Below, in pieces: positions 2,080 to 22,159 of a DNA stretch of 25,170 bases. Position numbers and translations under genes: made by a program. Origin of the DNA: a virus; IMG/VR virus record IMGVR_UViG_3300025168_000613, positions 1 to 25,170 of that record. One strand, written 5' to 3'. Position 1 is the first letter of the stretch. The number at the start of each line of letters is the position of its first letter. The notes under the pieces were generated by a model. The model saw only the letters and a program-made list of their open reading frames with translations, had not been told where the DNA came from and ran no database searches.

Positions 2080-4002
2080 TTAGTCTTCCCACTTCTCCAG
2101 TAGATCATCGTTGTTTGCGTAGTCATTCCATTTGTGACTTGCTAACTTAGATGCGTCTCCTTCGTAGTGAATACCCGTAGCAGGACTTGTCCAAGGCAGA
2201 GTCATCGTTTCCGGATCGAATCGAAGTTCCTCTGGTACACCCAGTCCTTGTCCCGTTGTAGCATCGGGAGTCGGCATGAAATACTCTTCCTTGTCTGGTG
2301 TACGGTAGTTGTCTCGCCACATAACATTGATGTACATGGGAGATCCCTCTCTAGAATAAGATTGCACAGGATATTGAACTTCGCGTTCTTCTCCTGTGTA
2401 GTGCTTCGGGGGTTTAACACCATTCCAGTTACCTTTACCAAACATGAGATTGTCTTGGAACAAGCAGTTTCGAGTGTTGTGTACACCCCATGCAAACATC
2501 CTTGCTCGTCCGACGAGGAGACTACCAAGTCCTTCGGGATTCGCTGGATCTTCTCGTCTTGCTCCGGGGTAGTTTTCGTCATCGATACCTGCCCAGTGAG
2601 CAATCTTGTTACCTACGAATGCGAAGTTTCTGAATTCAGATTCTGGTACAAGGTTTCTTTCAAACGAACCAAACACTTGCTGTCCACCACTGCGATTCCA
2701 TTCGGTGATGTACCGAAGAATGATATTTTCCTGAATAACCTTTTCATCATGCTTACTACCAGTGTGAGTCTGAATCAAGTCTACATGGACTCCACTTACT
2801 GGTGGTGGTGTACCATCGTCATCATTGAAGAACCCGTGACGAGATGTCGATAGATTCGACACAAGTTGAGACCAACCAGTGAGAATGATGTCACCAACGA
2901 TGAGATCATAGTGTGACTGGATGTCAACGATACGCATTGCGGGTTGGAAGTGTCGCTTCCATGTAGAACCGATCGAGAAGATATGCGGTCCACTCTTCGT
3001 CACGGCAGTAGTGGTAAACTCACCAGTCTCTAGATCTTGATAAGCAGACTCTCTACTCTTCCCTTCGATCAAGCAGTTGTCGAAACAGTACATGCCATTT
3101 CTTCCACTGTTGAACATATTAGAACCATCTTCTACTGTAGCGGGTACGATGTGAACATTCTTGAAGTAGAGTTTGCATTGCCATACACCATCGTGTTGTC
3201 CGACGATAGGGCATAGTTCTGGATCGACTGCGGATTCGATAGTCACCCACTGACCATCTTCTCTACCAGAAGAGTTTACCTTTCGTAGATCACGGTCTTC
3301 GCTGTTCGATGCAAGTTTGTGTTCACCTTCGAGCAGTTTAATCACACGCCCTGCGTTGGTGCCACCCTTAACAAGACCATGGTACGCTGCCTTATGAATC
3401 GTAGCAAATGGATTCTTTCTGGAACCATCACCAGTCTCATCGTTACCCTTGCCACTTACAAAGAATGCGGGATCATAGTCTGGTCCCCATGTCTGGTTGT
3501 TTGGGAATACATCGAATCCACAGATTGCTGGGTAGTCAAGGAATGAACCCTTTAATTCAAGGGGAATGCCAACCTTAGGATAAACCTTTGCACTGATGCG
3601 AAGTCGTTCTCCGTGTGTGAACTGTACAGGATTGAATTCAAAGAACCATTCGAGTTCACCAGTCTCTTCGTTGAGACGTTCTTCTGTAGCAATGCCAAGA
3701 ATGTTTGAGTATTCTTGTTTTGCACCCCAATTAGAGAGTACCTTTACGAGATCTTTTGGTCCGACTGTTCCCCAGTTTGCGAGAATGTAATTCAAATCAT
3801 CGACGTTCACTTCACCGTCTAGATTGAAATCACCACTGAGTTGTGTTGGGATCTTCTCGGCATCATGTAGATAGAATTCTACTTTCTCGATACCTTCGAG
3901 GGCGTATGCTGCTACGCCAATTTTCGTCTTACCACCCACATCAATATATTGTGGTCTCGTCCAATACGCAATTGCTGTTTCGTTCTCTGGTGTGTACGTC
4001 AT
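2080..4002 (-). CDS. Tailspike-like parallel beta-helix protein with dockerin-like insert
   Basis: 640 aa. Residues about 1-50 and 104-150 look like two halves of one Ig-like domain (KVEFYLHDAEK ... ELEWFFEFNP ... RISAKVYPKVG). Between them sits a dockerin-like segment: D58, N60, D62, N66 and D69 form a full calcium loop, followed by ILANWG, then a second half that keeps DLVKVLSNWG but has lost its loop. From about 168 the sequence is typical of right-handed beta-helix spikes (FFVSGKGNDETGDGS, NPFATIHKA, then many short turns and Asn/Gly ladders to the end). The start has AAGGAG upstream. There is no signal peptide, so I favour a virion tailspike or receptor-binding protein over an exported enzyme. 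No catalytic residues can be assigned by eye. Confidence 0.75.
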   Translation of the reverse strand: MTYTPENETAIAYWTRPQYIDVGGKTKIGVAAYALEGIEKVEFYLHDAEKIPTQLSGDFNLDGEVNVDDLNYILANWGTVGPKDLVKVLSNWGAKQEYSNILGIATEERLNEETGELEWFFEFNPVQFTHGERLRISAKVYPKVGIPLELKGSFLDYPAICGFDVFPNNQTWGPDYDPAFFVSGKGNDETGDGSRKNPFATIHKAAYHGLVKGGTNAGRVIKLLEGEHKLASNSEDRDLRKVNSSGREDGQWVTIESAVDPELCPIVGQHDGVWQCKLYFKNVHIVPATVEDGSNMFNSGRNGMYCFDNCLIEGKSRESAYQDLETGEFTTTAVTKSGPHIFSIGSTWKRHFQPAMRIVDIQSHYDLIVGDIILTGWSQLVSNLSTSRHGFFNDDDGTPPPVSGVHVDLIQTHTGSKHDEKVIQENIILRYITEWNRSGGQQVFGSFERNLVPESEFRNFAFVGNKIAHWAGIDDENYPGARREDPANPEGLGSLLVGRARMFAWGVHNTRNCLFQDNLMFGKGNWNGVKPPKHYTGEEREVQYPVQSYSREGSPMYINVMWRDNYRTPDKEEYFMPTPDATTGQGLGVPEELRFDPETMTLPWTSPATGIHYEGDASKLASHKWNDYANNDDLLEKWED

Positions 4003-7045: not shown

Positions 7046-8305
7046 ATGGCACTAGAATTTTCAGAGATTGCAATGTTAGGTTGCATGTTTTACAAGAAAA
7101 AAGATCTGGTAAAGGCAGGTTCTAGTACAGAGAACCTCGTCTCATTTGTCAACTCCGTCAAAAAACTAGTAGACTCGACAGATAAGATTAAATTTGGATC
7201 GAGCAAGGCCTCATTCGTTAAGGCAATGAATCCTGCTGTTGAGGAGGTTCTTGATGACTTTTGTCGTGGTATATCTGGTGCAATAGCGACCAAAGAGTGG
7301 TTGACTAAACACCATAACGAACCGGCAGATACAGTAATCAAAGCAGGATACATGACTGGTAATGTGTGGCCTTCTCCAGTAGATGCGTTCAAGTTCAAAG
7401 CGTTTGGTATGGCAGACTACAATTCATCCGACATTATTTTGTATACTGGTAAGCAAGGATCAAGTGAATACTTTTATGGTGTGTCTCTCAAGAAGAAAAA
7501 CACAGAGTATGCTCCTGATCCTACCATCATCAACAAAGCATTCGATACTATCATGGACGGTCCACAGTTTGATGCCATTAAAGAGAAACTAAAAGATGTC
7601 CGTGTGAAATGGTTTGCTAATAAAGTGAGAGAGGCAGACAAACTAGGTTTGATTGAAATAGAAGATAGACACAAAAAATTAAGTGATCCTGATCTTCTAA
7701 CTGCAAAACCTACGAGTGAAGAGGCCAAGGGCGGTAAGGGTAAGCAATATGTAAACCTCAAAGGAACATTGGCCGAGGGATATGACAACAAAACAGCAAG
7801 TTTCAAAAAGTGGATGAATAAAGAAGTTGGTACTGGTAATCTGTTCACACAACTGGTAAAAATTATTGAACCACACATGGAGATGTTCGCAAACTCCCTG
7901 ATCAACCTTGTATTCAAAGCAAAGTTGAACGATAAACTAAATGCAAACAGAGATCTCGATAAATACTACTTCGGATTCACACTAGCGACAGGTGTTGGTA
8001 AACACCACAAGAAGAATGGACCAAGCATAGGTAAAGGTCAAGTATACCCACAAGAAAGCGTGTTGTGTGCATTGAGTCACCTTGCTGCGGCAAAGAAACC
8101 ATATAAGATGGTACAGGTTCCAAACCCGGCCGCGAAAGAGGATTCGGTTGCTGCGAAAGTGTTCTTCGAGATCAGAGTAGGTAAAGTTAAACTTCTGGAT
8201 CTACAACTTCGTTACAAGGGTGACTTTAAGAGTCAACCCCAGTTCTTCGCCTTCATGACTGATGACTTCAAAGCACTCATGAAGGGCAAATGCTTGGACC
8301 CGTGA
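7046..8305 (+). CDS. Conserved phage protein with a nuclease-like DxnSxK motif
   Basis: 419 aa with no targeting leader. Strong AAGGAGG precedes the ATG and the gap to the kinase gene is 2 nt. The central part NSSDIILYTG (D129) followed by a strand ending YGVSLKKKN (S147, K149) is laid out like the D...(E/S)xK core of PD-(D/E)XK nucleases, with DPTIINKAFD just after. The C-terminal part has another beta hairpin (KVKLLDLQLRYKG, then QFFAFM) of the sort that closes such folds. I recall similar sequences in marine T4-like phages without an assigned function. A nuclease is therefore a hypothesis; the gene call itself is firm. Confidence 0.75.
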   Translation: MALEFSEIAMLGCMFYKKKDLVKAGSSTENLVSFVNSVKKLVDSTDKIKFGSSKASFVKAMNPAVEEVLDDFCRGISGAIATKEWLTKHHNEPADTVIKAGYMTGNVWPSPVDAFKFKAFGMADYNSSDIILYTGKQGSSEYFYGVSLKKKNTEYAPDPTIINKAFDTIMDGPQFDAIKEKLKDVRVKWFANKVREADKLGLIEIEDRHKKLSDPDLLTAKPTSEEAKGGKGKQYVNLKGTLAEGYDNKTASFKKWMNKEVGTGNLFTQLVKIIEPHMEMFANSLINLVFKAKLNDKLNANRDLDKYYFGFTLATGVGKHHKKNGPSIGKGQVYPQESVLCALSHLAAAKKPYKMVQVPNPAAKEDSVAAKVFFEIRVGKVKLLDLQLRYKGDFKSQPQFFAFMTDDFKALMKGKCLDP

Positions 8306-8340: not shown

Positions 8341-10335
8341 ATGTCAATACCACATCAAGCGTTTCTTGCCATGCTGGCAGAGAAACAACAAATTCTTAGA
8401 GACAACCACCTCATCGACATCACCGAAACCATGCGGACAGATATCCAAGAGGCCTCATGCGGAAACATGAAGATCGATGAACCTCTCAAGGGTAAGGGTT
8501 ATCCATACAACGAGAAGACTTTCAAACCTCACACGATGTATGATCCGAAGACTGGTAAGGGTTACGAGGCGAAAACCTACCAAGATCACCTTGACATGAA
8601 GAAGAAGGGGTATGGACACGAGAAACCTGAAGTCAAGGAAGATACTGAGCAAGTTGATGAACTCAAGGTAAAAACCTTAAGATCGTACATCAGCAAGGCA
8701 CAGAAGGACAACACCAAGCGTGTCACTCGAATGGCAGACAAACCAAGTCACATGAAAGCAGACAAGGGTGAGATGCAGAAGTTGCGAAAGCGACAAAAGG
8801 GCGTGGTAAAGGCGAAGACTGATATCGACATGCGTAAGATCCTCGGTAAAAACTACAGGGGTCGTATGGGTGAAGGTGTCGAACTAGAAGAAGCAACGAA
8901 CACGAGTGTTGTTGTCGATTTAAACGACGCGGCACAGATGCGATCAGCGTACAGAAAACTTGAATTAAAGATCTCAAGTCTTGATGGATACCGTGAGTCA
9001 GAGTTTGACAGTGCTAAGAACATGGCGACTTTTCGCTTTGACGCAAAGAAGCACGACGTTTCCGAACGCAAACAGGTAGCAGAGTTTATCAAAAAGACAA
9101 AAGGTGCTGAGTTTCATCACGCCATGACAGAAGAGATTGAACTCGAAGAGGGACCAGCAACTCAGAACCCTCTCAAGACTGCATTCGGTGGTATGAAGGC
9201 AGCACAGAACACTCCATCATATAAGAAATATATGAAGAGAGTAGGGAAAGAGCAGAAGGACAGAGCAAAGAAAATTGCTGCGGAACGTAAGTCAGGAAAG
9301 CGTAGCAAGTACGAATCCGTTGATAATCCTGAGTACGAACCAGAACTCGGTGAGATGAACATCGGCGAGGAACGAATCGAAGAGATGTCTGCGAAGGCAC
9401 ACTACAAGTCAGTCTTGAAGGGCGGAAAGGGTAAGGGTTATGTGGTTGGTGTTGCCATCGATCGTGAGCGTTATCCAAACCGTGAGAAACAAGGACTCGA
9501 AGGACCATACAAGAGTCGCAAGTCTGGTAAGATTTTCTACTACGACAAAAAAGAGGGCAAGTATTACGATCCCGATTCTGATATGTACCTGAAGGTCAGC
9601 GATGTCATGGAACGATATGAGTCTGCCGATCTCGCAAGAGAAAGAGATGAAAAGGAACTCAAGGAGTCCTTCCAGTTCCAGTTCGCAGACAAAGAAACCG
9701 CACAGGAGTTCATGCGAGAAATCTCACAGAAAAGATTAGGATCTTCGACCGGAACCAGTGACGGTAAAGTCAGATCAGAGGGTCCAGCAGGAGCAGGTGT
9801 TGGTAGTCCAACACGGGCGCATCAGCAGATGGCAAAGATCATGAAGAAGCATGGTGGTAAACTGATCTCGACAGACGAAGGTCCACGCATGAAGAAAGTG
9901 TTCAAGGAAGATGTCTCCTACGAGGGCAAGAAACCTCACTTCGACATGAGCAAGAAGAGAAAGTTCAATGTCCCAGATAAAACGACGAGACTAAAGGACA
10001 CAGGCAAAAACCCTGCCAAGAAACCATACCCCAAACAAGTCGGTGAGGAGATCGATATGATTAACGAGGATGACGTAGAACGCCGAGAGATTGAACTGTT
10101 CACATCCAACCACGCACAGATTTATCGTCAGCGTATCCAACCCATCATCAAGAACCTTGCTAAGAAGAAGGCAAAGGGAACCTACGATGATAAACTTGCC
10201 ATCAAGGCATGGACGTATGCAGTCAACGATGGAATCAAGGCATATAACAAGGAGTTTGGTAGTTCGATCAAACTCTCCGGTGCCGAGAAGGCGAAAGCAG
10301 CAGAGTACCTGCTGAAACAGTTCGAAGACGAATGA
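8341..10335 (+). CDS. Internal head polyprotein with several prohead protease-like sites
   Basis: 664 aa, highly charged. It looks like a chain of small domains cut by (L/I)xE sites: LAE then K at 12-15, IQE then A at 35-38, LEE then A at 182-185, LEE then G at 268-271, and LKE then S at 440-443. Segments include a basic helical piece (LKVKTLRSYISKAQKD, 108-123), a compact alpha/beta segment at 188-262, a second Gly/Lys-rich segment with SRKSGKIFYYDKKEGKYYD around 392-410, a segment starting FQFQFADKETAQEFM at 444, and a C-terminal helical domain from 589 (HAQIYRQRIQPIIKNLAKK) that I recall at the end of many phage structural proteins. AGGAG supports the start. Best read as a scaffold or DNA-associated head polyprotein; the exact role is unknown. 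Confidence 0.75.
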   Translation: MSIPHQAFLAMLAEKQQILRDNHLIDITETMRTDIQEASCGNMKIDEPLKGKGYPYNEKTFKPHTMYDPKTGKGYEAKTYQDHLDMKKKGYGHEKPEVKEDTEQVDELKVKTLRSYISKAQKDNTKRVTRMADKPSHMKADKGEMQKLRKRQKGVVKAKTDIDMRKILGKNYRGRMGEGVELEEATNTSVVVDLNDAAQMRSAYRKLELKISSLDGYRESEFDSAKNMATFRFDAKKHDVSERKQVAEFIKKTKGAEFHHAMTEEIELEEGPATQNPLKTAFGGMKAAQNTPSYKKYMKRVGKEQKDRAKKIAAERKSGKRSKYESVDNPEYEPELGEMNIGEERIEEMSAKAHYKSVLKGGKGKGYVVGVAIDRERYPNREKQGLEGPYKSRKSGKIFYYDKKEGKYYDPDSDMYLKVSDVMERYESADLARERDEKELKESFQFQFADKETAQEFMREISQKRLGSSTGTSDGKVRSEGPAGAGVGSPTRAHQQMAKIMKKHGGKLISTDEGPRMKKVFKEDVSYEGKKPHFDMSKKRKFNVPDKTTRLKDTGKNPAKKPYPKQVGEEIDMINEDDVERREIELFTSNHAQIYRQRIQPIIKNLAKKKAKGTYDDKLAIKAWTYAVNDGIKAYNKEFGSSIKLSGAEKAKAAEYLLKQFEDE

Positions 10336-10341
10336 AAAATG

Positions 10342-10371
10342 GGGGAGTGCTTGACACTCCCCTGTTTTTTT
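10342..10371 (+). terminator. Intrinsic terminator overlapping a promoter
   Basis: An 8-bp stem GGGGAGTG / CACTCCCC with a five-base loop, followed by TG and seven T. It ends the rightward operon 6 nt past the polyprotein stop. Its loop and 3' arm contain the -35 box of the next promoter. Confidence 0.85.
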
Positions 10372-10406: not shown

Positions 10407-10910
10407 ATGAGCAGAAATGTTTTGCTGCTGAATGCTTCCGAAGAAGTAATTAATGTCATTGATTGGAAAAGAGCGATTACATTGTTATTCTCGGGTAAGG
10501 CACAGGCGCCATATAATTATGAACATGCATACGAAGTAAGAACCAACAACGGTAAATTCAAACTACCTTGTGCAATCATGCTTCTCAAGTATGTACGGTT
10601 GCCGTTTAGCACGGCAAATCCAACACGAAACAATATTCTCAAACGAGATAGTTATCTGTGTCAATATTGCAGTACCCGTCTCACTGCGAAGAACACCACA
10701 TTGGACCACGTTATCCCAAAGAGTCGTGGTGGCGGTGGTGGATGGGAGAATCTAGTATCATCTTGCATGAAGTGCAACAACGTCAAGGGCAATCGCACAC
10801 CGAGAGAAGCAGGTATGCCCCTGAACAAACATCCACGCAAAGAAACCAACATTTCACTTCTGATTATGTCAATGGGTGACGTTGAAGCATGGAAACGCTG
10901 GAACCTATAA
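10407..10910 (+). CDS. HNH endonuclease
   Basis: 167 aa. The N-terminal half ([27 protein letters not shown]) is the usual front of a widespread bacterial HNH family. The C-terminal half carries a zinc-binding and catalytic unit: C85-x2-C88, the D100-H101 pair in [14 protein letters not shown]115 in WENLVSSC, and C120-x2-C123 followed by N124. All expected residues are present, so it should be active as a metal-dependent DNA nuclease. It stands directly behind a consensus host-type promoter, so early action on host or incoming DNA, or free-standing homing, is plausible. No intron or homing target is visible around it. Confidence 0.88.
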
Positions 10911-14505: not shown

Positions 14506-16056
14506 ATGAAAAGTTTAAACGACTTTCAAACTTCAATTATGGAAAGTACCAAGGATACGATTGTGTATACCTTTGGTCGATTTCAACCACCGACATCGGG
14601 ACATCAACTCCTGATTGACAAGGTTATCTCTGTAGCGAAAAAGCAAGGAGCAGAACACCGCATTTACCCAAGTGTATCGAACGATCCCAAGAAAAATCCT
14701 TTGTCTCATACGGACAAGGTAAAGTTCATGAAACAGATGTTCAAGAAAGCGAACATCGTGAATGATAAAAAAATCATCACACCCTTTCATGCCGCCAAAC
14801 AACTCAGTGATCAGGGTTACAAGAACGTAACCCTGATCGTTGGGGGCGACAGGGTTGCCGATTTACGCAAACAAATCACACAGTATATCGATCATCCAGA
14901 TCCCAAGAAGGCATTCTACTTTGATTCGTTCAAGGTAGTAAGTGCAGGGAAGCGTGATCCAGATTCGAGCGATATCAGTGGCATGTCAGCATCTAAGATG
15001 CGAAAAGCAGTAGGAGATAAAGACTTCGATCTGTTCATGCAAGGGATGCCAGACTCGGTGTCCAAGACAACAGCAAAGAGACTATACAACGCGATCGCAA
15101 AGGGTATGAACCTCAAGGAAGATCGTGATTATGCAGACGAATACGAAAAGCATCATGCAAGTCCTGAGCAGCGTGCAAGACGCATCTCACGCACCGTAAC
15201 CCGGAAAAAAGCAGAACGAGAGGGTAGAGTCGCTAAAGGAGACGGAAAGGATATAGATCACAAAGATCACAATCCCCACAACGATTCTCCTTCTAATCTC
15301 CGTATAAAATCCAAGGCCTCGAACCGAAGTGATAACGGTCACAAACCTGGCGAGAAGCAAAAACAACACGAAGAGACTGAAGTTGACGAACTCACAATTC
15401 AGCAGCGAAGAAATATCTCCCGAGCAGCAAAGAAAACTTCCAAGAGAAGACTGAAGACTAGACTTCGCAAGAAGAAGCAGAAAAAGGGCACAGTAGATCT
15501 TCAGAAGAAGGCAGGCAAAGAAGCGATCAATGCTCTCAAGAAGAAATTCTTGAAGGGTAAGAACTATGCAGATCTGTCTCACTCAGAAAAAGAAAAGATC
15601 GACGGCAAATTGAAGAAGGTTCCTAAAACCAGACTAGATGCCATCAGGAAAAAGATGATGAAGGTTGCCAAGGAAAAAGAGAGAGAAAGACTCAAAGTCG
15701 CCCGTGCTGGTACGAATGAAGAGAAACTAAAACCAAAGGATCGGGAGATGGGAACCAAATCTTGCACCGATACCTATGCAGACGATACACCCGGACAGAA
15801 GAAGATCAAGTCGTTCAAGGAAGCATGTTGGGATACCCATGTGCAGAAGGGTATGAAGAAGAAGGGTAACAAGATGGTTCCCAACTGCGTACCCAAGAAC
15901 GAAGATATTGATGAAGTGTCTCCTCCCGGATTCGAAGGAACCGTAAAGGCGATGAAGAAGCATAAAGAAGTAGATAACCCATATGCACTCGCGTGGTATA
16001 TGAAGAATAAGGGTTACAAGTCACACAAGAAGAAAGACGGATCAGACAAAAAATAA
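14506..16056 (+). CDS. Capsid-targeted nucleotidyltransferase fused to HNH-like and basic domains
   Basis: 516 aa. The leader MKSLNDFQTSIME then S ends in an IxE site at residue 13. A NadR/NMNAT-type nucleotidyltransferase follows: strand TIVYTFGRFQPPTSGHQLL (18-36), where GRFQPPxxGH is the ATP-binding HxGH-type motif with the first His replaced by Thr, and ISGMSASKMRKA (157-168), the ISSTxxR-like motif. Residues 247-276 (GKDIDHKDHNPHNDSPSNL) look like an HNH core with D251-H252 and N264. From about 290 the chain is basic and helical, then ends with a Cys-containing module (CTDTYADDTPGQ, ACWDTHVQKGM) and PGFEGTVKAMKK. The HNH segment is short and may only bind DNA. Substrate of the transferase is unknown: NMN, a nucleotide or a sugar phosphate. 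Confidence 0.8.
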   Translation: MKSLNDFQTSIMESTKDTIVYTFGRFQPPTSGHQLLIDKVISVAKKQGAEHRIYPSVSNDPKKNPLSHTDKVKFMKQMFKKANIVNDKKIITPFHAAKQLSDQGYKNVTLIVGGDRVADLRKQITQYIDHPDPKKAFYFDSFKVVSAGKRDPDSSDISGMSASKMRKAVGDKDFDLFMQGMPDSVSKTTAKRLYNAIAKGMNLKEDRDYADEYEKHHASPEQRARRISRTVTRKKAEREGRVAKGDGKDIDHKDHNPHNDSPSNLRIKSKASNRSDNGHKPGEKQKQHEETEVDELTIQQRRNISRAAKKTSKRRLKTRLRKKKQKKGTVDLQKKAGKEAINALKKKFLKGKNYADLSHSEKEKIDGKLKKVPKTRLDAIRKKMMKVAKEKERERLKVARAGTNEEKLKPKDREMGTKSCTDTYADDTPGQKKIKSFKEACWDTHVQKGMKKKGNKMVPNCVPKNEDIDEVSPPGFEGTVKAMKKHKEVDNPYALAWYMKNKGYKSHKKKDGSDKK

Positions 16057-17616: not shown

Positions 17617-18471
17617 ATGAAAAGGTTACTCTTATTGTCATGTCTTTTATTAGGATGTGAAACTACACCAGAACCATCAGCGTCGAGTACAATCACTCAC
17701 GCGATAGAAGTTCAGGAAGAAACAACAGAACAAATAGACGAATCCTCTGCTATAATTGAGGAGAGTAGCGATACCATTCGTAGAGATGCGGATGGTATCC
17801 TTGATATCACGGCGTTTAAAGAACGAACGCCTGAGATTAAACGTATCGAAGATAGGGCGCATAACATAATCGATGAAACTAACGTCATCGAAAATGAGAC
17901 AATAAAGACAAAAGAGGCATTAAAAGACCTAAATCGTGCAAATGAATTAATTCGACAAAGTGGCGCCAAAGTGGCACAACTGGAAAGAGAAGTCGCTGAG
18001 TTATCTAAAGAAGATGCCGCTTTACGACGCGAGGCGATCGAGAACTTTTATGGTACGATTACCCTGTTCTATGTGATAGGGTTCGCCGGACTCATTCTTG
18101 GTATCTTCATGGTTTCGTACAGCAAGAAACTCGGTGGTACGCTTATCCTTGCAGGACTTTTGATTCTTGGTTTTGCTACTGCTTCCGTGTACTACCTAGA
18201 AGAGATTGCAGCAGTAGGATTCTGGATCACCATAGCAGGAATCATAACTGCTGTTGGTACTCTGATCTATCTTATCCTTCGAGCAAAGACAGAAAGAAAG
18301 ACAAACGATCAAGTAGTAGAGTTAGTCGAGGTGATCAAAGAAAAGATGCCACAGGACGTTCGAAACGAAATGTTCTCAAAAGGTGGTGTGGCATACACAA
18401 TCACCGATCCGTCCACCAAGAAAATAATAAACGAAGTTAAAGTTCGGAATGGATTTAAGCATACCCGTTGA
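17617..18471 (+). CDS. Lipoprotein with coiled coil and three TM helices
   Basis: 284 aa from the ATG at 17617, which has AGGAGG five bases upstream; a GTG at 17611 lies inside that site and is less likely. Residues 1-14 (MKRLLLLSCLLLGC) are a lipoprotein signal with lipobox LLGC. A long polar, helical, coiled-coil-prone stretch follows (about 30-145, many Glu, Ile and Arg). Three hydrophobic helices lie between about 145 and 223 (FYGTITLFYVIGFAGLILGI, GGTLILAGLLILGFATA, GFWITIAGIITAVGTLIYLI), then a charged tail. A lipid anchor in one membrane plus a coiled coil and helices in the other is the layout of unimolecular spanins, but those have one helix, so the assignment is weak. It closes the rightward operon and overlaps convergent ruvC by 17 nt. 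Confidence 0.75.
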   Translation: MKRLLLLSCLLLGCETTPEPSASSTITHAIEVQEETTEQIDESSAIIEESSDTIRRDADGILDITAFKERTPEIKRIEDRAHNIIDETNVIENETIKTKEALKDLNRANELIRQSGAKVAQLEREVAELSKEDAALRREAIENFYGTITLFYVIGFAGLILGIFMVSYSKKLGGTLILAGLLILGFATASVYYLEEIAAVGFWITIAGIITAVGTLIYLILRAKTERKTNDQVVELVEVIKEKMPQDVRNEMFSKGGVAYTITDPSTKKIINEVKVRNGFKHTR

Positions 18472-19036
18472 TCTTTCCGTGTAGCATCTTACAGATGTAA
18501 TAGGCGTCCACGATATCCGATACCGGGTTCTGGACGCCTGTTTTCTTAGGTGTCATGATCTTACATAGATCTTTACCAGTTTCCTTGAGGAAGGCATCGA
18601 ACATCAGATCCTTGGATGCATTACCCTTATCGGTTGCGAACTTCTTTACTTCAGTGGGTGCTAATACCTCAAGTGGCGTGGCAGATTGAAACAACTTATA
18701 TTTCAGAACCCCCACGTTCTCTGCTAACTGGAATACTCTACCAGTGGCATTGTATGCATATCCTTCGAGTGCTACTTGATCACATCCCACGATGCAATCG
18801 ATTGCCCAGTCTGATATGCTATCGTATCGTCCAGAGTCAGGACACAAATTGACGGGAGATCCAATTGATTTAAATCGTTCGCCCTTTATGTTCTTGAGAA
18901 ATGATTTTGCATATTTCTCAGTGTCTGTTAGATAAAAGAATAAACAATGCTCGAACTTAAACTTAGCAGATGATGGTTTAGAAAAAACACATACTGCTGG
19001 TGATGTTAAACTGTAATCGATTCCTGCAATGGCCAT
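18455..19036 (-). CDS. RuvC-like Holliday junction resolvase
   Basis: 193 aa of RNase H-fold nuclease type. D7 in AIAGIDYSL is the first catalytic Asp. VALEGYAYNATGRVFQLAE gives E91 and the basic helix, APTEVKKFATDKGNASK the third region, and SDIVDAYY the last pair, D174 and D177, spaced as in RuvC (D138/D141 in E. coli). All four metal ligands are present, so activity is likely: cutting of branched DNA before packaging or during recombination. It starts with GGGAGG before the ATG. Its late promoter and ribosome site lie inside a 17-bp hairpin that seems to block translation of read-through mRNA. The 3' end overlaps the plus-strand lipoprotein gene by 17 nt. Confidence 0.87.
   Translation of the reverse strand: MAIAGIDYSLTSPAVCVFSKPSSAKFKFEHCLFFYLTDTEKYAKSFLKNIKGERFKSIGSPVNLCPDSGRYDSISDWAIDCIVGCDQVALEGYAYNATGRVFQLAENVGVLKYKLFQSATPLEVLAPTEVKKFATDKGNASKDLMFDAFLKETGKDLCKIMTPKKTGVQNPVSDIVDAYYICKMLHGKINGYA
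18502..18546 (+). terminator. Terminator-like hairpin for the rightward operon inside ruvC
   Basis: AGGCGTCCA (18502-18510) and TGGACGCCT (18531-18539) form a perfect 9-bp stem with a 20-nt loop, followed by GTTTTCTT on the plus strand. It begins 31 nt after the lipoprotein stop. The same bases encode the region of RuvC D174 and D177. The long loop makes it weaker than a standard intrinsic terminator. Confidence 0.55.
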
Positions 19037-19038
19037 AA

Positions 19039-19077
19039 AAAACCTCCCGTATAAAGACTATTTATACGAGAGGTCTT
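19039..19077 (-). promoter_or_regulatory. Hairpin that hides the ruvC ribosome site, also terminator-like
   Basis: On the minus transcript a 5' arm (19077-19061) pairs with a 3' arm (19055-19039) over 17 bp, with two G-U wobbles and a five-base loop UAGUC. The 3' arm contains GGGAGG, the ruvC Shine-Dalgarno, and ends in six U directly before the AUG. Read-through from porin or nrdJ would either stop here or have the site sequestered. Confidence 0.75.
19059..19066 (-). promoter_or_regulatory. T4-type late promoter of ruvC, inside the hairpin
   Basis: Perfect TATAAATA on the minus strand, 22 nt before the ATG. The expected start, near 19053, lies past the loop, so late mRNA lacks the 5' arm and its ribosome site is free. 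Confidence 0.75.
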
Positions 19078-19103: not shown

Positions 19104-20129
19104 TCAGAAACTGATAGTGATACCACTACGGAGAACGAACTGTCCCGAATCGGAACCAGATCGCCATCCAGTGTTTTCTGTGTCGAAGTTACTACCGATA
19201 CCCTCAAGAGCATACCCGGCCGTGTTGGTCCAGACAAGTCCGTGAGCGAGATCGTAGTTACCACCTACGGTAAGAATGTTAAGACTACCATCGTAGTCAC
19301 CGTATTCCCACTGTGCGAATCCTTCGAACTTATCGAAGCACTTATATGCAGCAGTAGTTACTACAGACCAGTTGTCGAGACTACCAGCACCTGCATCATT
19401 AGCAATCCAGTCTGCATCGAGAGTAAGAAGACCCTCGGTGAGTGTACCACCAAAGGTGAAACTGTTCACACCTTCCGTGACAGAATCATATGCCCAACCA
19501 CCGTTGAGTGACACGGAATCATTCACACGATAATTCGCTGCGACACCGATGGCATACTTGTTGTCTCCAACTCCCACACCAGCAGTATCGAAACCATTGT
19601 TGTAGAAGGCGCTGACTTCGAAGTCACCGAATGATCGGAAGGCCTCAATACCTGCTCCGCGTCCCTGTCCGAAGGTAAGTGCCGTGACACTATAGTTCAG
19701 GGTTGTGAGTTGAGTTGGATCAGTGACGTATCCAGCATAGAACTGGGGAACGAACTGTCCGACTCGAATGTTTGCTTCTTCAAACATACGAAGAGTAACG
19801 ACTGCATCAAGCAGATCGAAACTGTTGGTAGCGTCCGACCATTCACCACTGACGAGGTAAGAGAAACTCTCGTTACTCGTATCTCCTGAGAAGGTAAGAC
19901 GGGCGCGGTCAACCGAAAAACCGTTTTGGGCGGGAAGTCCGCCACCGTTGGAATATTCCCAACCAGTTTGAATGAAACCACCGACGTTGATACCGAGGTG
20001 ATTGTCATTGAGTGATGCTCTCGTAGAAGCATCGGCGAGGACGAGACTGAATGTGTCTGAGTCCGTATCTTGTCCAACAGCAACTCCGCTGAAAACACAA
20101 GATGCAATAATAGCACTGATAAATTTCAT
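19104..20129 (-). CDS. Outer-membrane porin, OprO/P-like
   Basis: 341 aa from the ATG at 20129, preceded by AAGGAG; the frame is open 22 codons further up but that part overlaps the reductase gene and lacks a signal. Residues 1-20 (MKFISAIIASCVFSGVAVGQ) are a Sec signal peptide. The mature chain alternates hydrophobic and polar residues in about sixteen beta strands. INVGGFIQTGWEYSN, RARLTFSGDTS, NIRVGQFVPQFYAGYVTDP and GRGAGIEAFRS resemble the OprO/P phosphate-selective porin group. The chain ends in Phe (GITISF), the BAM recognition signal. Located 23 bp after the reductase gene, it is presumably on the same early transcript. Possible roles: nutrient uptake during infection, or replacing a surface receptor. 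Phages with porin genes are known (PA-2 Lc), but a gene of this family is unusual. Confidence 0.82.
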   Translation of the reverse strand: MKFISAIIASCVFSGVAVGQDTDSDTFSLVLADASTRASLNDNHLGINVGGFIQTGWEYSNGGGLPAQNGFSVDRARLTFSGDTSNESFSYLVSGEWSDATNSFDLLDAVVTLRMFEEANIRVGQFVPQFYAGYVTDPTQLTTLNYSVTALTFGQGRGAGIEAFRSFGDFEVSAFYNNGFDTAGVGVGDNKYAIGVAANYRVNDSVSLNGGWAYDSVTEGVNSFTFGGTLTEGLLTLDADWIANDAGAGSLDNWSVVTTAAYKCFDKFEGFAQWEYGDYDGSLNILTVGGNYDLAHGLVWTNTAGYALEGIGSNFDTENTGWRSGSDSGQFVLRSGITISF

Positions 20130-20152: not shown

Positions 20153-22087
20153 TCAGTTTGTTAAATCTACGATTTCGCAAGAGTTCCCAGAACATGCCAT
20201 TGTCTGAGATCCAGAAGTATTGTCTTCCTTTTCATACTCCCCGAGATCGCTCCAGTCTACACCGACTGGCAAATTCTTTAGTAATTCGTTGTACTCTTCC
20301 TTGGTACAATCTTGATATGGTGCTTGTCTGTATGTGTGATCTGAGAATGGAAGGAATGAAACTCCAGACATTTCTTTAAAGTGATCGTATACCCATGCAC
20401 CAACTTCCATCCATTCGTGATCCTTAACAGAAACTGTGATAGAAGGTTTGTGTTCACACCAATGTCTCTGGTACGTCAACCAAAGTTCAAGTTGTTCGAT
20501 GGCAGTCGAGTCCACCCTACAAATCGCCTTATCAGGTGACTTCTGTGGGAACGAGAAAACCATCGTGTGTTCTGGTTTCATTACATCTGGTTCACACGGG
20601 AAACCCTTTTCCTTCATGAACACACACAGGGGATCTTTGATATCCGCACGGACAGTGCGAACGTAATAAGGATTGTGTCGAGCATGAATACCAGATGCAG
20701 CATCCACCAACTGTGAAACTGTTCCACTTGGTTTCACACAAGTGATAGCAGCAGATTGGTTGATGTGTAGTTTCTTTGCCCATGTCTTATTGACATCAAC
20801 AGAATGCTTCTTGAGATCCTCTAGGGTTCCTGCAAGTTTACCGTTGGTAGAACCATTGAGTAATGCGTTGTCCATGATACCCGTGAGAGAAACACCAAGT
20901 AGTCTCTCTTCTTCGCAGTTCTTTGTCCACTCACTGGACAGGTACTTGAAGTTCAGAAGGGTAGACTGCCATGTTCCGAGGATCGTTGCAAGACGAACCT
21001 TTTCCTTGAGAGTCTTTACTGTGTCATCAGCACGAACGACAACTTCTGTTAGATTACAGAACTCACGATCACGCAAGATGATTTCACTGCATGGGTTGGT
21101 TCCGAAGTTGTAGTTTGGATCTCGACGTTCGTCAACGATCTTCTTTACCTGTTCCTGACACGCAGCACGACTGAACATACCTCTCTCGCCACTCTTTGAC
21201 TTATAGAGAGATAACCACTCTTCCATGAATGTGCCAATTTCGGGCGTACTCTTATACGCAACAGAGTTGTTTGCAAGGGCCCGTTGTGCGTTGTGTTCCC
21301 ACCACTGTCCTGTCTTTGCATCTCTCATTCGTTCATCAGTAAGTGAAGACAATGAGATAAGAGCAGATCGACGGACACCACCGACTACAACAATTTCAGC
21401 AATCTTGCAGATGATATCGTGACACTCGACGGTAGTGAGTTTTCTACCTGCGGCCTTACGGTAAGTCTCTACCGTGAATTGGAAAAGATCCTCAAGAGGT
21501 TGCGGTCCAGATGCTCTGCCACCGAATGTCTTGAGTCTTGCTCCAGCAGGACGAACTTTACTTGTGTCCCATTGTGGTACTTGACCACCAATGAGTAGCG
21601 AGGTGAGTTCTTTGTATGACTTTGCCCAACCCATCTTAGAATCACCGACGACAATGAGTGAGTCACTCGCATCGAATTCCTCTGCAATCGTTGGAAGTCT
21701 GTCTACGACATCACGTTCTACACTAAAACCCATCCCTGTCCCGCACATGAGAACGTAGAGGATCTCATCGAAGGAACGAGGACGACTCGCTTCACAGTAT
21801 GCACAGTTGTATCCTGCAATATTGTCGCGTCTCAGTGCCTCACCGGCAGTCATCAACGCTCTCATGGAAGGCATGATCTTGAGTTCACGAACTGCTGTTT
21901 CGAGTTCGTTCCTCTGATCTTTCGTTACCTTGAAATTACATTCTTCCTTGAGGTGTTCCTCAAAGAAATCAAAATATCTGGCAACCGTTTCGGGCCAGGT
22001 CTCTCTTCGTCCTTTATCTTCTAACCACCGAGAATACCGTGATAGGTGAATAAAAGACTGGTATAGCGTGGGCAATTCATCACACAT
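20153..22087 (-). CDS. nrdJ: Adenosylcobalamin-dependent (class II) ribonucleotide reductase, monomeric type
   Basis: 644 aa from the ATG at 22087, with GAGGAG eleven bases upstream; a GTG at 22099 lies inside that site. It reduces ribonucleoside triphosphates to deoxynucleotides for phage DNA synthesis. By position counted from the GTG: C99 in GYNCAYC and C348 in REFCNL are the redox pair, C337 and E339 in NFGTNPCSEI are the radical Cys and the acid. CHDIICKIAEIVVVGGVRRSAL and the C-terminal CSGNSC (C636/C641) complete the set seen in the Lactobacillus RTPR type. No NrdB-like subunit or ATP cone is seen. It is somewhat shorter than RTPR (about 740 residues). The promoter is sigma70-type, fitting early expression. 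The porin gene follows. Confidence 0.9.
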   Translation of the reverse strand: MCDELPTLYQSFIHLSRYSRWLEDKGRRETWPETVARYFDFFEEHLKEECNFKVTKDQRNELETAVRELKIMPSMRALMTAGEALRRDNIAGYNCAYCEASRPRSFDEILYVLMCGTGMGFSVERDVVDRLPTIAEEFDASDSLIVVGDSKMGWAKSYKELTSLLIGGQVPQWDTSKVRPAGARLKTFGGRASGPQPLEDLFQFTVETYRKAAGRKLTTVECHDIICKIAEIVVVGGVRRSALISLSSLTDERMRDAKTGQWWEHNAQRALANNSVAYKSTPEIGTFMEEWLSLYKSKSGERGMFSRAACQEQVKKIVDERRDPNYNFGTNPCSEIILRDREFCNLTEVVVRADDTVKTLKEKVRLATILGTWQSTLLNFKYLSSEWTKNCEEERLLGVSLTGIMDNALLNGSTNGKLAGTLEDLKKHSVDVNKTWAKKLHINQSAAITCVKPSGTVSQLVDAASGIHARHNPYYVRTVRADIKDPLCVFMKEKGFPCEPDVMKPEHTMVFSFPQKSPDKAICRVDSTAIEQLELWLTYQRHWCEHKPSITVSVKDHEWMEVGAWVYDHFKEMSGVSFLPFSDHTYRQAPYQDCTKEEYNELLKNLPVGVDWSDLGEYEKEDNTSGSQTMACSGNSCEIVDLTN

Positions 22088-22131
22088 AATAAGTGTCACT
22101 CCTCTGAATTTTGTATATCAATAAGTTATGT

Positions 22132-22159
22132 ATAATAGCAGAAACTGTGCAGATGTCAA
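22132..22159 (-). promoter_or_regulatory. Sigma70-type promoter for nrdJ and porin
   Basis: On the minus strand TTGACA (22159-22154) and TATTAT (22137-22132) are 16 nt apart. The -35 box is perfect and the -10 box differs by one base. The leader to the ATG at 22087 is about 40 nt and holds GAGGAG. Confidence 0.75.

Follow-up and report, generated by a model that had tools for sequence, protein, structure and literature searches.

A hairpin before a viral ruvC gene that probably combines a transcription terminator, a T4-type late promoter and a gate on the ribosome-binding site

Introduction

The locus described here raises the question of whether one hairpin between two genes can end one transcript, start another and control translation of the gene that follows it. 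It lies directly before a gene for a RuvC-like Holliday junction resolvase of a T4-related marine virus, in a 25-kb IMG/VR virus record, the whole of which was analysed (and is called the window below); a nucleotide search against cultured phages gave no match. A preliminary description had proposed that this hairpin hides the ruvC ribosome-binding site, holds a late promoter whose RNA lacks the 5′ arm, and doubles as the terminator of the porin unit upstream.

Results

Genes around the element

The ruvC gene (18455..19036, minus strand) encodes a 193-aa protein that matches phrog_159 (E = 1.5e-30) and found no Pfam match in a profile search; its D7, E91, D174 and D177 are invariant in an alignment (A1) of ten viral RuvC homologues, which fits the acidic catalytic quartet of RuvC. 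Upstream on the same strand are a porin-like gene (19104..20129; Porin_O_P, PF07396, E = 4.9e-6; stop codon 19106-19104) and, just beyond it, a ribonucleotide reductase gene (20153..22087; phrog_367, E = 4e-189), for which the ATG at 22087 is preferred as start over the listed GTG at 22099. The sigma-70-like promoter TTGACA-16-TATTAT before the reductase gene (22132..22159, minus strand) probably drives early transcription of the reductase-porin unit, judged by its sequence; it is kept as TTGACA-16-TATAAT in a 128-kb relative (G001) whose ruvC and porin are 98% and 97% identical to those of the window. Reductase, porin and ruvC are consecutive on the minus strand behind this promoter, and the hairpin, which sits between porin and ruvC, may end the RNA that starts there. 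Relatives of the porin-like protein occur in about 30 viral loci, and a virus-encoded Porin_O_P-like protein is itself unusual phage cargo.

Structure of the hairpin

The hairpin (19039..19077, minus strand) reads, from 19077 to 19039, AAGACCTCTCGTATAAA, TAGTC and TTTATACGGGAGGTTTT, which form a stem of 17 pairs (including two G.U) closed by a 5-nt loop (UAGUC in RNA). Its 3′ arm contains the Shine-Dalgarno sequence GGGAGG (19043..19048, minus strand), 6 nt from the ruvC ATG (19036-19034), and between the GC-containing stem and that start codon is a U6 tract (19037..19042, minus strand) that the ATG follows directly; four of its six T fall inside the 17-bp stem as drawn. The T4-type late promoter sequence TATAAATA spans the upper part of the 5′ arm together with the loop (19059..19066, minus strand). 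Sequence and predicted fold bear out every structural feature claimed earlier, namely a 17-bp hairpin that hides GGGAGG and is followed by six U, with the late promoter within its 5′ arm and loop (19066-19059).

Such a structure is not readily produced by chance: the local fold has a z of −4.2, none of 200 dinucleotide shuffles was equally stable, and when the whole window was shuffled 25 times, a 17-bp stem arose anywhere on one strand in one shuffle only. No other TATAAATA-bearing stem of at least 13 bp is present in the window or in the 128-kb relative. The generic terminator scan of the window did not return the hairpin, probably because some of the U tract is taken up in pairing with the 5′ AAGA. 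Elsewhere in the window an 18-bp inverted repeat (14803-14844, plus strand) lies inside a cytidyltransferase-like gene and is kept with small changes in G001 (8005-8046).

Terminator character and syntenic relatives

The hairpin has the layout of an intrinsic terminator, a stable stem with a U tract directly after it, and its d'Aubenton-Carafa score (published formula) is d = 28.8, compared with a maximum of −6.7 among 150 random 100-nt stretches. Hairpins at the same place in relatives score 10–54, and the leaders of T4 gene 49 and SFP10 ruvC score 10 and 7, respectively. We regard its function as an intrinsic terminator as credible on this basis, and the earlier proposal that it also terminates the porin unit is upheld by the score together with the presence of a terminator at the same spot in most syntenic relatives. 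The terminator role is indeed the best-supported comparative feature of the element, as read from the sequences. A second overlap of this kind is seen at 10334-10370 (plus strand), where a 16-bp terminator hairpin (score 44.6) contains the −35 box TTGACA of a sigma-70-like promoter (12/12) that serves an HNH gene at 10407; it is kept in G001 at about 3290-3330.

Syntenic relatives were retrieved via the porin, and the order porin, (short ORF), terminator hairpin, ruvC was found in clearly diverged viruses. A terminator precedes ruvC in 11 of the 12 distinct scorable leaders on contigs that also bear this porin (the window, L002, L005, L193, L257, L264, L265, L268, L271, L273 and L274), a count that leaves out records that end before ruvC or in which ruvC was not recognised beside the porin. 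The exception, L210 (the L210/L270 contig), has about 2.6 kb between porin and ruvC and no terminator before the latter. L268 and L271-L274 have a GC-rich terminator and, after it, NATAAATA at a spacing that predicts a late mRNA starting at the AUG; L257, L264 and L265 have the terminator and no late motif by the test used. Many more distant ruvC loci have no hairpin.

Within the window's own clade (L002-L007) the arms are identical, and there is no covariation. L193/L255, whose porin and ruvC are 86% and 54% identical to those of the window, likewise has terminator and late promoter merged (AAGACCCCCGTGCTAAATAGTACGGGGGTTTTTTATATG). Between L193 and the window the flanks (5′ AAGACC and 3′ GGTTTTTT) are the same and the stem has been rebuilt symmetrically, from CCTCTC/GGGAGG to CCCCC/GGGGG, so that pairing is preserved in this one-sequence comparison; a search with the L193 ruvC found no further relatives. 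By sequence, then, terminator and late promoter are fused both in the window's clade and in the syntenic L193/L255.

The late promoter and the late-transcription system

In the 25-kb window TATAAATA occurs four times, compared with 0.47 expected. In T4 the late promoter lies at −13 to −6 relative to the start (PMC1524935), and this spacing places the predicted late start of ruvC at 19053 (minus strand). RNA from that predicted start would lack the whole 5′ arm, in agreement with the preliminary description.

The window contains neither a gp55-type late sigma gene nor a gp45-type sliding clamp gene; both are present in G001 (phrog_234, 1.6e-60, and phrog_223, respectively). Our guess that phrog_275 was gp55 proved wrong, and the gp55-type gene was found instead beside an SbcD-like gene. 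Over the whole 128 kb of G001 TATAAATA is not clearly enriched (9 occurrences and 7 of the reversed pattern), and a late-motif signal emerges only with restriction to intergenic leaders, where NATAAATA has 10 sense and 0 antisense occurrences, mostly 16–43 nt from the ATG; the antisense count was used there since ATAAATA is the same read backwards, which makes the reversed-pattern control uninformative. Genes preceded by NATAAATA include those for the tail tube, major head, tail sheath and PAAR proteins. The gp55 and gp45 genes of G001 and this placement of the motif support T4-style late transcription in this virus group, and they make TATAAATA before ruvC a credible late promoter.

Predicted accessibility of the ribosome-binding site

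Fold prediction for read-through RNA gives GGGAGG an unpaired probability of at most 0.0013 (about 0.1%). For late RNA with 90 nt of downstream context GGGA is about 72–90% unpaired and the last two G are mostly paired, and with a shorter context the figure for the scored tetranucleotide is 97%; in the late RNA of G001 the ribosome site is predicted to be only 3–40% unpaired. The Shine-Dalgarno sequence is thus predicted to be fully hidden in read-through RNA and partly released in late RNA, a release that appears large, depends on the model and is weaker in G001. Mean Shine-Dalgarno accessibility gain was 0.41 for ruvC leaders (n = 12) and 0.15 for other late genes (n = 151), the latter a set itself enriched through the pattern scan that was used, and these predictions lend weak support to a larger gain for ruvC leaders as a class.

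ruvC leaders in other viruses

In Ackermannviridae (SFP10, SKML-39, Magnus, Kevin and IMG/VR relatives) ruvC is preceded by a 10–16 bp hairpin that ends at the ATG, with [A/C/G]TAAATA in or beside its 5′ arm. In a seven-sequence alignment of these hairpins 98.9% of cells pair and two pairs are changed on both sides, and none are in slid controls; these are small numbers from related sequences. Published accounts of this family give its late consensus as unidentified (PMC3184105) or as TATAAATA-like (PMC3121705), and the late-gene leaders of SFP10 suggest to us that TAAATA is its late promoter. The leader of the SFP10 endolysin gene (L169:15962-16756, minus strand), TTTAAATACCTTCGCATACATTGCGGAGGTATTTT, resembles the same gate and, if it is one, would parallel T4 gene e.

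An automatic rule (with a gate defined as at least 7 pairs) sorted 119 distinct viral ruvC leaders, sampled unevenly over phages, into 24 with a promoter-in-hairpin gate (doubtful cases included, such as L203, whose motif is well upstream), 38 with a predicted leaderless or nearly leaderless late start, 12 with a late motif and no or a weak gate, and 45 with no late motif. A late promoter exactly 5 nt before the ATG, as in L197, L198, L199, L201, L214, L218, L271-L274 and others, predicts a leaderless late mRNA; the predicted start falls exactly on the A of the ATG in 22 of 70 leaders for ruvC and in 22 of 264 for other genes, a sharp peak. A pattern scan of viral contigs also returned T4-lysozyme-like genes with TATAAATA in a ribosome-site hairpin (L056, L062, L082, L099 and L135) and a recurring family of small proteins (MDISKQSQ and similar; L054, L063, L075, L090, L102, L104 and L108) with leaders of the form CTTATAAATAG...TTTATAAGGAGG.

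Comparison with known systems

The likeness to T4 e, soc and 49 drawn in the preliminary description is right: it matches the reviews cited below, and when we folded the gene 49 and soc leaders the hidden-site layout was seen in both. Gene 49 (endonuclease VII) is like the window in having a late-promoter-like AATAAATA in the 5′ arm, a ribosome-binding site in the 3′ side of the hairpin, which extends as far as the ATG, and a Holliday junction resolvase as its product, but its terminator character is weaker (10 vs. 28.8). The two resolvases are presumably not homologous, one being endonuclease VII and the other having the RuvC fold. Ackermannviridae ruvC leaders share with the window a homologous gene and a late-motif gate hairpin at the ATG, but have a weaker Shine-Dalgarno sequence, little terminator character and unrelated arm sequences. 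Intrinsic (rho-independent) terminators likewise have a GC-containing stem followed by U6, but the window's hairpin also holds a promoter and the ribosome-binding site of the next gene.

Reviews count T4 e, soc, 49, I-TevI and others among the late genes for which long early RNA keeps the ribosome site covered and late RNA exposes it (PMC2988022, PMC3014915). For e, soc, I-TevI/II/III, segB and Aeh1 mobE, as is predicted for the window, RNA folding masks the ribosome-binding site in long early RNA, and transcription from a late promoter within or beside the 5′ strand releases it; these genes have other functions and their structures are not described as terminators in those papers (PMC2988022, PMC3014915). 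The window's element appears to fit the T4-type gated late genes in every feature that can be tested by sequence, and to stand apart from them through its strongly terminator-like character. Among the papers searched, none was found that links RuvC to a late promoter and a hairpin, which does not in itself prove novelty.

Discussion

We consider it quite probable that one element acts as terminator, late promoter and ribosome-site gate, so that ruvC is silent until late transcription. Early polymerase coming from the reductase-porin unit would transcribe the whole hairpin, and most of this transcription would end at the GC-containing stem and U6, just before the ruvC ATG; in the RNA that reads through, GGGAGG would be locked in the stem and poorly translated. 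When the gp55-type late sigma becomes active, TATAAATA in the hairpin DNA would start RNA at about 19053; because the 5′ arm is missing this RNA could form neither terminator nor gate, and it would keep the Shine-Dalgarno sequence and be translated. The resolvase is therefore probably made only late in infection, as the preliminary description had it, and its suggestion that ruvC RNA may exist early is weakened, since with so strong a predicted terminator most early RNA should end before ruvC. We judge termination to be the main effect and ribosome-site hiding the back-up. Termination, start site, translational repression and the timing of the ruvC switch are all things that we infer from the DNA.

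An ordinary terminator of the reductase-porin unit might, by chance, share its DNA with the late promoter and leader of ruvC, because intergenic space is short, and have no gating role. We give this explanation appreciable though clearly less than even weight: the score is high, L257, L268 and L271-L274 have same-position terminators without a ribosome-site gate, and the same virus has the second promoter-terminator overlap at 10334-10370, but the Shine-Dalgarno sequence lies wholly in the 3′ arm with near-zero predicted accessibility, and the Ackermannviridae ruvC gates show compensatory changes with little terminator character. The converse, a pure gate of the gene 49 type in which early RNA enters ruvC, hiding alone delays the protein and the U tract is incidental, is favoured by a layout shared with gene 49 and with the e, soc and I-TevI cases in the reviews; we think it improbable, given a U6 right after the GC part of the stem, a score far above those of gene 49 and SFP10 ruvC, and the conservation of terminators in syntenic relatives. 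That a TATAAA...TTTATA promoter region merely folds on itself with no regulatory meaning is very improbable. TATAAA is easily completed to a self-complementary arm, and an IMG/VR scan with such a pattern gave 84 stretches, some not before genes; nonetheless, the 11 further pairs beyond the TATAAA part, the z value and the preservation of the rebuilt stem in L193 all speak against it.

A wider reading, which we hold tentatively and with slightly less than even confidence, is that late-only expression of the resolvase, locked in at the RNA leader, has arisen several times, in part independently, among phages with T4-type late transcription, by a promoter in a hairpin (T4 gene 49, and RuvC of Ackermannviridae and of the marine group) or by leaderless late mRNA (many other viral ruvC genes), and that the window's clade fused this lock with the upstream terminator. 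Timing should matter to phages, because premature resolvase activity could cut intermediates of replication and recombination. Cultured phages such as SFP10 carry concrete leaders on which these ideas can be tested. The fused terminator, promoter and ribosome-site element would be an unusually compact regulatory design, and the recurrence of similar late-only arrangements for resolvase genes that are not related to each other, across phage families, would point to selection on the timing of resolvase synthesis.
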